From Cognatundibacterium griseum (GTDB lineage Bacteria > Pseudomonadota > Gammaproteobacteria > Burkholderiales > Burkholderiaceae_D), in assembly GCF_014284195.1 (NCBI RefSeq), contig NZ_JACOGC010000002.1, positions 62,001-126,000 on the forward strand: a stretch of DNA of 64,000 nucleotides. Direction: 5' to 3'. The stretch's first letter is position 1, and every line of letters starts with the position of its first letter. Below the pieces are notes generated by a model, which did not search any database, was not told the origin of the DNA, and saw only the letters and a program-made list of their open reading frames with translations. The translations under genes were made by a program, and so were the position numbers. Of this stretch, positions 12,408 through 61,717 are shown piece after piece.

Positions 12408-12543
12408 TACGGCATCACCTGAATGTGTCGGGCCGGCCGATTTGCGGGAGAGGGATACATGCAACCAGTATGCGTCCCTGCGATCAAGGCAAGTGAGGAT
12501 GTAAGTAAGTCAGATACTCCACCCTGTTTTTCATAAAAGCGAG

Positions 12544-12614
12544 CTGACGTCAAAATAAAGTAAGGGTTTTAAAATATACTGGGGGGAGTATATTTTTGCT
12601 GCGCAAACCCTGAA
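12544..12614 (+). repeat. Dispersed palindromic intergenic repeat, copy 1
   Basis: Core arms AAAATATACT (12571-12580) and AGTATATTTT (12587-12596) form a perfect 10-bp inverted repeat around GGGGGG. CTGA starts 27 bases before the core, and GGG then TTTT lie just before it; CCCTGAA starts 12 bases after it. The same layout recurs at 22.1 kb and the left part at 61.7 kb. It lies between converging genes and could form an RNA hairpin followed by U residues. Confidence 0.75.
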
Positions 12615-22068: not shown

Positions 22069-22172
22069 TACTTTGAGGGGAGTATCCTATTTTTTCGGCC
22101 TGATGCCCAGATAATCAAAGGGGTTTCAAATATACTCAGAGGGAGTATATTTGAGGATGGAAATGCCCTGAA
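22069..22172 (+). repeat. Dispersed palindromic intergenic repeat, copy 2, with a weaker upstream half-site pair
   Basis: Core arms CAAATATACT (22127-22136) and AGTATATTTG (22144-22153) pair perfectly over 10 bp around CAGAGGG. Relative to copy 1 the outer pair changes from A-T to C-G on both arms, which keeps the pairing. CTGA starts 27 bases before the core and CCCTGAA 13 bases after it, as in copy 1. A weaker TACT-N8-AGTA with GAGGGG lies at 22069-22084. The element sits between the converging kynR and serine hydrolase genes. Confidence 0.75.
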
Positions 22173-35278: not shown

Positions 35279-35866
35279 ATGTCACAAGCGACCGACCTGC
35301 AAACAAACAGCACTCCGCCAGCACGTCCAAACGAGATGAATCTGATCTGGGTTGATCTGGAAATGACCGGGCTGGACCCCGATAATGACCGGATTATCGA
35401 GATTGCCGTGGTGGTCACCGATTCGCAACTGAATATCCTGGCCGAAGGACCGGTCTTTGCGATCCATCAGTCCGATGAGACGCTCGATAAAATGGATGCC
35501 TGGAACAAGGGAACGCACGGACGTTCCGGTCTGATCGACAAGGTCAAGACATCGACGGTCAGTGAGGCAGATGCCGAGCAGGCGTTGATTGCTTTCCTGA
35601 AGCCGTATGTGCCGGCAGGAAAATCGCCGATGTGCGGTAATTCCATTTGTCAGGACCGTCGCTTTATGGCACGCGGAATGCCGAAGCTGGAAGCATTTTT
35701 CCATTACCGTAACCTGGATGTCTCGACGCTGAAAGAATTGTGCCGCCGCTGGAAACCTGCGATCTCAACCGGCTTTAAAAAACATCAGAAACATACTGCG
35801 CTGGCCGATATTGTCGAATCTATTGAAGAGCTGAAGTACTATCGTCAGCATTTCATTCAGGAATAA
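35279..35866 (+). CDS. orn: Oligoribonuclease
   Basis: DEDDh 3'-5' exonuclease that degrades 2-5-mer RNA, including pGpG from c-di-GMP breakdown. 195 residues with [24 protein letters not shown] (here in parts, about 21-44) carrying the first Asp and Glu, and [11 protein letters not shown] (about 168-178) carrying the last His and Asp. AAGGAAG lies 5 bases before the ATG. Usual length is about 180. Confidence 0.96.
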
Positions 35867-35907
35867 TTCCCTGAAATTTTCTGAAGCTCTCTGAAATAGA
35901 GAGCGCA

Positions 35908-35940
35908 ATAAAAAAACGGCAGAGTGTGCCGTTTTTTTAT
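35908..35940. terminator. Bidirectional terminator between orn and the FKBP gene
   Basis: ATA7-CGGCA and TGCCG-T7-AT pair over 14 bp (35908-35921 with 35927-35940) with loop GAGTG. It can stop both converging genes. Confidence 0.9.
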
Positions 35941-36003
35941 TTGTACTGTCATGAACTGACGGCACCGCGATTCACGTTTGCAAGCCTGCCTGTTCGCAAT
36001 GTT

Positions 36004-36360
36004 TTACACACCCAGCAGCTCTACTTCAAAAATCAGGGTTGCATTCGGTGGGATCACGCCGCCAGCGCCGCGCGGACCATAGCCCAAGCTGGAAGGAATG
36101 GTCAGGATGCGGGTGCCGCCGATTTTCATGCCCTGCACGCCTTCATCCCAGCCTTTGATGACGTGACCGGCACCGAGCGGGAAGGAAAACGGATCGTTAC
36201 GGTCCTTGCTGGAATCAAATTTCTTGCCTGCGCTGCCATCCTGATTTTGCAGCCAGCCTGTGTAATGAACGACGACGTGATGACCTGCTTGCGCTTCGGC
36301 GCCTTCACCAACGACTTTATCTTCATACTGCAGGCCGCTGACGGTAGTGATTGTGCTCAT
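36004..36360 (-). CDS. FKBP-type peptidyl-prolyl isomerase
   Basis: 118 residues from the ATG at 36360, with AAGGAA upstream. A single FKBP domain without signal peptide: HYTGWLQNQDGSAGKKFDSS (about 31-50), then GAGHVIKGWDEGVQGMKIGG (in parts) and the C-terminal IPPNATLIFEVELL. A cytoplasmic folding catalyst of the short FKBP type. It faces orn. Confidence 0.94.
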   Translation of the reverse strand: MSTITTVSGLQYEDKVVGEGAEAQAGHHVVVHYTGWLQNQDGSAGKKFDSSKDRNDPFSFPLGAGHVIKGWDEGVQGMKIGGTRILTIPSSLGYGPRGAGGVIPPNATLIFEVELLGV

Positions 36361-61584: not shown

Positions 61585-61645
61585 AGCTGGCTGTCTGATT
61601 GGATTCCGGTCTCGGGGTTGACCGGAATATTCAAAAAATTAGGGG

Positions 61646-61717
61646 GTATATGCGTTTTCTGTCTGATCATCAGCATCAATACTGGGCTTTAAAATATACT
61701 GGGGGGGAGTATATTGG
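61646..61717 (+). repeat. Dispersed palindromic intergenic repeat, copy 3
   Basis: Arms AATATACT (61693-61700) and AGTATATT (61708-61715) pair over 8 bp around GGGGGGG; outer bases do not pair. CTGA starts 28 bases before the core, then ATCAA and GGGCTTT as in copy 2. A GTAT motif lies 45 bases before the core in both copies 2 and 3. The element sits in the parE-parC gap, so it could affect parC expression. Confidence 0.75.

Follow-up and report, generated by a model that had tools for sequence, protein, structure and literature searches.

The window, a stretch of 64,000 nucleotides of Cognatundibacterium griseum DNA, contains three copies of a dispersed element (Table 1). Copies 1 and 2 each lie between two convergent genes; distances of 103 and 252 bp separate copy 1 from the ends of its two neighbours. 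Copy 3 lies in the gap between parE and parC. The three dyads lie where the first-pass annotation had placed three copies of an intergenic repeat. A dyad scan (up to three mismatches, loops of 3–9 nt) found only these three loci in the window, and first-order Markov shuffles of the window (n = 30) gave a mean of 0.47 dyad matches.

Table 1. Coordinates of the element copies, their parts and the orphan PF02583 gene (window positions unless a contig is given).
Feature	Position	Strand	Remarks
Element copy 1, C-type left half-site	12511..12597	+	R1 64.1 bits
Copy 1 left half-site ATACTCCAC	12514..12522	+	1 mismatch to ATACTCCCC; 59 nt before dyad arm
Copy 1 inner conserved block	12540..12572	+	consensus gCCTGatgTCca.aTAAAtAAAGGGctTTtA
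Copy 1 right dyad AATATACT-N6-AGTATATT	12573..12594	+	dyad scan
Element copy 2, G-type left half-site	22069..22154	+	R1 63.6 bits
Copy 2 left half-site GGGGAGTAT	22077..22085	+	52 nt before dyad arm
Copy 2 inner conserved block	22096..22128	+	
Copy 2 right dyad AATATACT-N7-AGTATATT	22129..22151	+	dyad scan
Element copy 3, G-type, degenerate half-site, parE-parC gap	61633..61716	+	R1 55.2 bits
Copy 3 left half-site AGGGGGTAT	61641..61649	+	2 mismatches
Copy 3 inner conserved block	61660..61692	+	
Copy 3 right dyad AATATACT-N7-AGTATATT	61693..61715	+	dyad scan
Orphan PF02583 gene L178, 104 aa	G000:C10:59451-59762	minus	outside window

A sequence-only model of 93 positions (R1) was built from an alignment (A1) of 42 oriented copies from the own genome and relatives. 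One locus, L012, was dropped as the scan found no dyad in it. R1 was run against the C. griseum genome (G000; 3.6 Mb, 19 contigs). There were 147 own-genome matches, in which we count 94 separate places; the rest are read as echoes of the palindrome on the reverse strand. The count is at least 94, as 150 of 737 candidates were scored. The E-value was 1.3 × 10−4 or better at 93 places and 0.019 at one; the right arm was not proper in two copies. With up to three mismatches, the loop-6 dyad was found at 28 places genome-wide versus 2 in the control, and the loop-7 dyad at 59 versus 9. All 94 places were intergenic according to a home-made gene caller, with an overlap of a gene end of at most 23 bp. 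In two viral contigs, matches were limited to the loose dyad. The element is a site of ~85 bp, present in about a hundred or more copies in C. griseum, a freshwater bacterium, and some relatives. The first-pass annotation had expected a dispersed intergenic family with many copies in the genome, and the genome-wide model search agreed: the repeat is not limited to three copies, and its alignment extends beyond the core. It had also known of no named family of this kind. Rfam searches with six loci gave no relevant family, just two sub-threshold eukaryotic matches away from the element, and the partial texts covered by a literature search gave no account of the dispersed repeat or of any PF02583 nucleoid protein.

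A typical copy is a rigid composite of three parts: a half-site, which reads ATACTCCCC in one orientation or the other, a block of ~40 bp and a dyad, ATACT-N6/7-AGTAT. The dyad loop was 7 nt in 58 of the 94 copies, 6 nt in 33, 8 nt in 2 and 5 nt in 1. The left half-site was G-type in 54 copies and C-type in 40. With a scoring that favoured the ranges 51–53 and 58–60, not exact values, the G-type half-site GGGGAGTAT started exactly at −52 from the left arm of the dyad in 46 copies, and the C-type half-site ATACTCCCC exactly at −59 in 33; the half-site start was within 2 nt of these positions in 14 of the remaining 15. The two types are one unit inverted, being reverse complements including the flanking A/T tract (CAGATACTCCCCnnnTTTTT). 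If one half of a dyad on duplex DNA is used, the half-site should indeed occur in either orientation. The centre of the half-site was 62–62.5 bp from that of the dyad, which by arithmetic is about six helical turns. Between half-site and dyad lies the conserved gCCTGatgTCca.aTAAAtAAAGGGctTTtA. To the right of the dyad, conservation stopped after ~3 nt in a consensus built from the 79 copies with exact spacing. The CTGA, GGG and TTT that the first-pass annotation saw before the core are real and belong to the conserved block, while the half-site 52 or 59 nt upstream had been overlooked. The CCCTGAA that it reported after the core is a chance match, since conservation ends ~3 nt past the dyad. 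The "matching change in both arms" that it described for copy 2 falls outside the conserved arms.

The inner part of the element varies by lineage. A clear inner repeat, ATTGTCCA/TGGACAAT, was found in the G023 lineage, TGCGCA in G006 and AGCGCTT in G028. The inner inverted repeat (L402-L437) switches as a set between lineages. This set-wise change suggests a second, co-evolving DNA-binding factor, and we read the inner repeat as a putative second duplex site. A covarying helix was rejected as its explanation: no inner helix was outstanding in the 79 copies of exact spacing in G000, and in G023 the left arm varies without compensation.

Twenty orthologous pairs of elements from G000 and G021 were compared. 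The half-site differed at 4 of 179 positions. The dyad arms differed at 0 of 200, a figure biased because the G021 loci were picked by R1 (nine) or by an arm pattern (eleven). Differences were more frequent in the loop (30 of 135 positions), the low-information block (116 of 445) and the flanks (13–16%). In the 11 pairs from the arm pattern, which is blind to the half-site, differences were seen at 1 of 98 positions in the half-site, 21 of 74 in the loop and 115 of 613 in the rest of the block. As a whole, the element did not exceed other aligned intergenic DNA in conservation (85.9% versus 87.0%); the motif positions alone did. The five inner dyad pairs were invariant in 42 of 42 copies with no two-sided change, in copies picked by patterns favouring intact arms, and the invariance of the dyad arms is largely ascertainment. 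Among 92 G000 copies compared, no near-identical pair was found (highest 85%, mean 52%), giving no sign of recent copying. As half-sites resist change, loops and spacers drift, near-identical copies are absent and covariation is absent, the elements look like maintained composite duplex DNA sites. The first-pass annotation had suggested selection for dyad pairing. Our comparison speaks against it: there is no covariation, the left half-site occurs in either orientation, and the half-site letters are what is kept.

An RNA element (terminator, attenuator or structured 3′ UTR) would fit a dyad that can form a hairpin and copies that lie near gene 3′ ends, but we regard it as extremely improbable. 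No covariation of the dyad arms was found in the 42 copies or in the 79 exactly spaced ones, and the inner left arm in G023 is uncompensated. Codirectional gaps showed no strand preference, with 34 '++' and 27 '--' contexts. At window 35866-36004, the element of the relatives adjoins a separate terminator-like hairpin with a T-tract, as judged by eye. An RNA hairpin or terminator was rejected, with covariation absent and no Rfam family for the six loci.

In G000, the copies are spaced more evenly than by chance. The coefficient of variation (CV) of the gaps between copies was 0.69, whereas random points gave 0.99 and none of 5000 random sets had so low a value. The CV stayed low after the 10, 20 or 30 weakest copies were dropped. 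Under an intergenic null, for which the gene layout of the window was tiled, 10.3 gaps below 5 kb and 20.1 below 10 kb were expected, and 2 and 7 were observed. For G023, scoring covered 150 of 2794 candidates, and each of the 150 passed; five gaps below 5 kb were observed versus 19.5–22 expected. Its overall CV (0.97 versus 0.99 for random points) was not lower, and short gaps alone were depleted. Neighbours closer than 5 kb are avoided in two lineages, and in G000 the avoidance reaches 10 kb. No replication-strand bias was seen: in G000, the orientation of 45 of 94 copies agreed with local GC skew, and in G023 that of 80 of 150 agreed with the assumed replichore. The terminus region contained 10 elements versus 19.1 expected (p = 0.012) with one assumed terminus, and showed no depletion with two others.

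The family also occurs in relatives, as the first-pass annotation had thought worth checking. At E = 1e-4, R1 matched 18 of 43 genus genomes (99 candidates scored in each). At E = 1e-5, at least 21 of the 392 genomes of the family had a match, and they belong to 3 of 44 genera; these counts are floors, because 10 candidates per genome were scored. Two genomes of 2.2–2.4 Mb from genus g57 of the same family, G124 and G145, each had at least 10 element-model candidates. Sampled elements were at G000 element sites in 20 of 20 cases for G021 and in 11 of 20 for G042. Copy 3 is common to G000, G021, G029, G042, G047, G003 and G023, and its half-site is G-type in all seven. The place of copy 2 is also occupied in G042, G047 and G021; in G003 its gap is ~50 bp and has no element. 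Copy 1 is present in G042 and G047 and was lost in G021 along with most of its gap. R1 found no copy 1 in G003, where the corresponding 4-kb gap was read in part. At window 35866-36004, an element is present in G042 and G047 and absent from G000, G021 and G003. Another G042/G047 element sits in a segment absent from the window.

These differences in presence and absence bear on the main alternative, an old family of non-autonomous mobile repeats (MITE- or REP-like). The conserved letters would then be kept for a transposase, and the avoidance of neighbours would be target immunity. The 9 of 20 sampled G042 elements without a G000 counterpart fit such a family (G000 may lack some of the regions), as do the two G042/G047 elements just described. 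The end motifs are inverted in those C-type copies whose loop is G-rich, and intergenic placement is usual for REPs. However, position, constraint and the lack of young copies stand against it. Even between deeply separated lineages, elements retain their position and the type of left site as loop and spacer drift, the left unit occurs in either orientation, and the 92 G000 copies include no near-identical pair. The first-pass annotation had proposed a search for empty sites. Presence or absence between species was indeed seen, but the junctions were not alignable, and the regions read gave no clean empty site or target duplication. One close pair of G042 elements flanks an ordinary-looking gene. 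We consider it unlikely that the elements are mobile repeats.

REPs are 20–50 nt long, have a tetranucleotide in front, most often GTAG, and are bound as single strands, according to PMC8266576. Like REPs and BIMEs, the element is short, palindromic, intergenic and present in many copies. It differs in being a two-site duplex with no GTAG-type tag in the consensus of the 79 exactly spaced copies. Two matches to Y1_Tnp (PF01797) were found in G000, at C14:79129-79431 and C12:230307-230651, the second below the curated cut-off. No found element flanks these genes, the nearest being about 30 kb or more away. A RAYT/REP identity was rejected, the PF01797 genes being far from the found elements.

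A candidate binder is encoded elsewhere in the genome. G000 has two PF02583 genes, L177 and L178. L178 passed the PF02583 (DUF156) cut-off with 62.1 bits versus 22.8. Its scores against the NCBIfam models of RcnR, FrmR and RicR (22.7, 27.5 and 34.3 bits) were far below the cut-offs of 138, 133 and 175. Its nearest solved chains are CsoR. In an alignment of 14 sequences, the first Cys was kept in 13, and the second ligand position, which we take to be that of CsoR His61, was Ser or Ala in all 14. The Cys-His-Cys/His metal-ligand fingerprint, with the ligand positions as we presume them, is absent from these 14 aligned sequences. The paralogue L177 adjoins a gene that looks like an exporter and contains a His-rich stretch; L177 itself is similar to FrmR/RcnR, with scores under both cut-offs. 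Upstream of this FrmR/RcnR-like gene, L177:1762-1785 reads ATAGTATAGGGGGGTATCCTATAT, a possible operator of the paralogue that is distinct from the dispersed dyad. The RcnR-like L177 was rejected as the binder: its promoter is without the exact dyad, and weak paralogue matches did not track elements in a search with the orphan as query and with partial coverage of paralogues.

Orthologues of L178 (E < 1e-20) were found in 26 of the 43 genus genomes. All 18 Undibacterium genomes with element matches had one, versus 8 of 25 without matches (Fisher p = 3e-6); the same was true of 15 of 15 genomes with at least 10 element matches versus 11 of 28 others (p = 6e-5). The other three of the 18 element genomes (G055, G030 and G028) have one or two matches. 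Among genomes at least 90% complete, the orthologue was present in 16 and absent from 0 with elements, versus 7 and 13 without. Eight genomes had the orthologue and no detected dispersed elements. In a ParE phylogeny covering 31 of the 43 genomes, three changes are needed to account for the state with neither protein nor elements: in the sister clade of G000 and G021 (G048, G001, G012), in G005 and in the G009-G041 clade. Joint losses are likely rather than proved, because the tree has a midpoint root. The co-occurrence of protein and elements is partly shared ancestry.

The promoters of the orthologues contained the exact ATACT-N6/7-AGTAT in 22 of 26 cases versus 0 in a reversed-letter control, and three more (G056, G023 and G003) had a dyad with one mismatch. 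Among the 18 element genomes, 15 have the promoter dyad 64–67 bp upstream of the start, as do 2 of the 8 genomes with the protein alone. The sequence ATACTCCC was found within the first codons of 18 of the 26 orthologues, and protein conservation explains part of this. In 13 element genomes, the centres of this first-codon half-site and of the promoter dyad are 72–73.5 bp apart, about seven turns by arithmetic. In G003, which has the most divergent protein (57%), 8 of 9 half-sites in three copies read were ATACC, not ATACT.

The elements might instead be sites of another protein, with the PF02583 gene merely co-inherited and its promoter dyad coincidental. The inner repeat is lineage-specific and may be the site of a second factor, which would suit this view. 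We find it quite improbable given the promoter dyads, for which fewer than 1e-3 would be expected per promoter (by arithmetic; the orthologues are related), and given the three joint absences on the ParE tree. The type of operator also suits the PF02583 family.

The positions of elements relative to genes bear on what the PF02583 protein would do. As to the question of convergent versus other sites, which the first-pass annotation had raised, 23 elements were in convergent gaps, 61 in codirectional and 10 in divergent ones, versus 22, 115 and 47 for other gaps of at least 90 bp at the same loci. Ordinary operators of a large PF02583 regulon would explain the dyad in the protein's own promoter. 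They would also fit the start-facing genes, 39 of 81 of which begin within 100 bp of the element. However, elements are nearer to gene ends than to gene starts, with median distances of 40 and 108 bp and with 77 of 107 gene ends within 100 bp, and divergent gaps are under-used, with 10 of 94 elements versus 47 of 184 other gaps. Moreover, 61 nearby genes, judged by eye from their first 60 residues, were assorted and housekeeping-looking with no shared theme, and close neighbours are avoided. An ordinary regulon is, in our judgement, decidedly unlikely.

Proteins of the PF02583 family are known as sensors, each in control of a few operators. Here, the genomes have 94 or more predicted sites each, mostly off promoters. 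The type-1 operator of CsoR/RcnR is an AT-rich inverted repeat around one G/C tract of 3–8 bases, and E. coli RcnR has a tandem of TACT-G6-N-AGTA, as stated in PMC3902906. The dyad of the element matches this operator, with TACT/AGTA around one G/C tract in most G000 copies. The G023 copies read have a tract as short as GGG, most of them having been picked by a GGG-containing pattern, and with such a tract they would be a weak type-1 operator. SlmA and Noc also use dispersed palindromic sites, about 70 NBS and 24–52 SBS according to PMC4726725, and the element family shares this dispersed palindromic form. Their protein families are ParB and TetR, whereas here the candidate is a PF02583 protein and the architecture is an 85-bp composite.

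Taken together, sequence comparisons suggest that each element is a composite site at which the orphan CsoR/RcnR-family (PF02583) protein binds duplex DNA, with a chromosome-organising role; we give this reading a probability of roughly 0.6. The protein, probably a tetramer, would contact both the dyad and the half-site, ~62 bp or six turns apart, on one face of the helix. The DNA between them may be wrapped or looped by the protein, and a second factor possibly sits at the inner inverted repeat. The sites would serve chromosome organisation, as nucleoid-associated or domain-marking sites, and not a regulon; we propose this role because the sites are near the ends of unrelated genes, off promoters and spread along the chromosome. 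Binding, bridging or wrapping by a tetramer and the chromosome-level role are what we infer from these patterns.

A fuller scenario is put forward tentatively, at somewhat short of even odds. A CsoR/RcnR repressor would have turned into a chromosome organiser that lost the usual sensing ligands, kept the site in its own promoter and has ~100 to more than 150 mutually avoiding composite sites, with DNA wrapped between contacts six turns apart and sites decaying upon loss of the gene. The protein was probably first an autoregulated repressor, with the dispersed sites coming later, though this order is a guess. If the scenario is true, a PF02583 member with ~100 maintained sites and no evident regulon would represent a new route to a nucleoid-associated protein, and the three joint absences of protein and elements in one genus would be natural experiments.

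A different intergenic repeat was observed in the parE-parC gap of element-free genomes. Five of them (L390/G025, L392/G045, L396/G043, L398/G032 and L399/G041) share GCGGCGCATT.CGGCGTTGCAAATCCTCGCAATACCGACGTATTGC... at this place. Stretches loosely like this repeat, as judged by eye, were also seen in L381, L387, L393 and L394.
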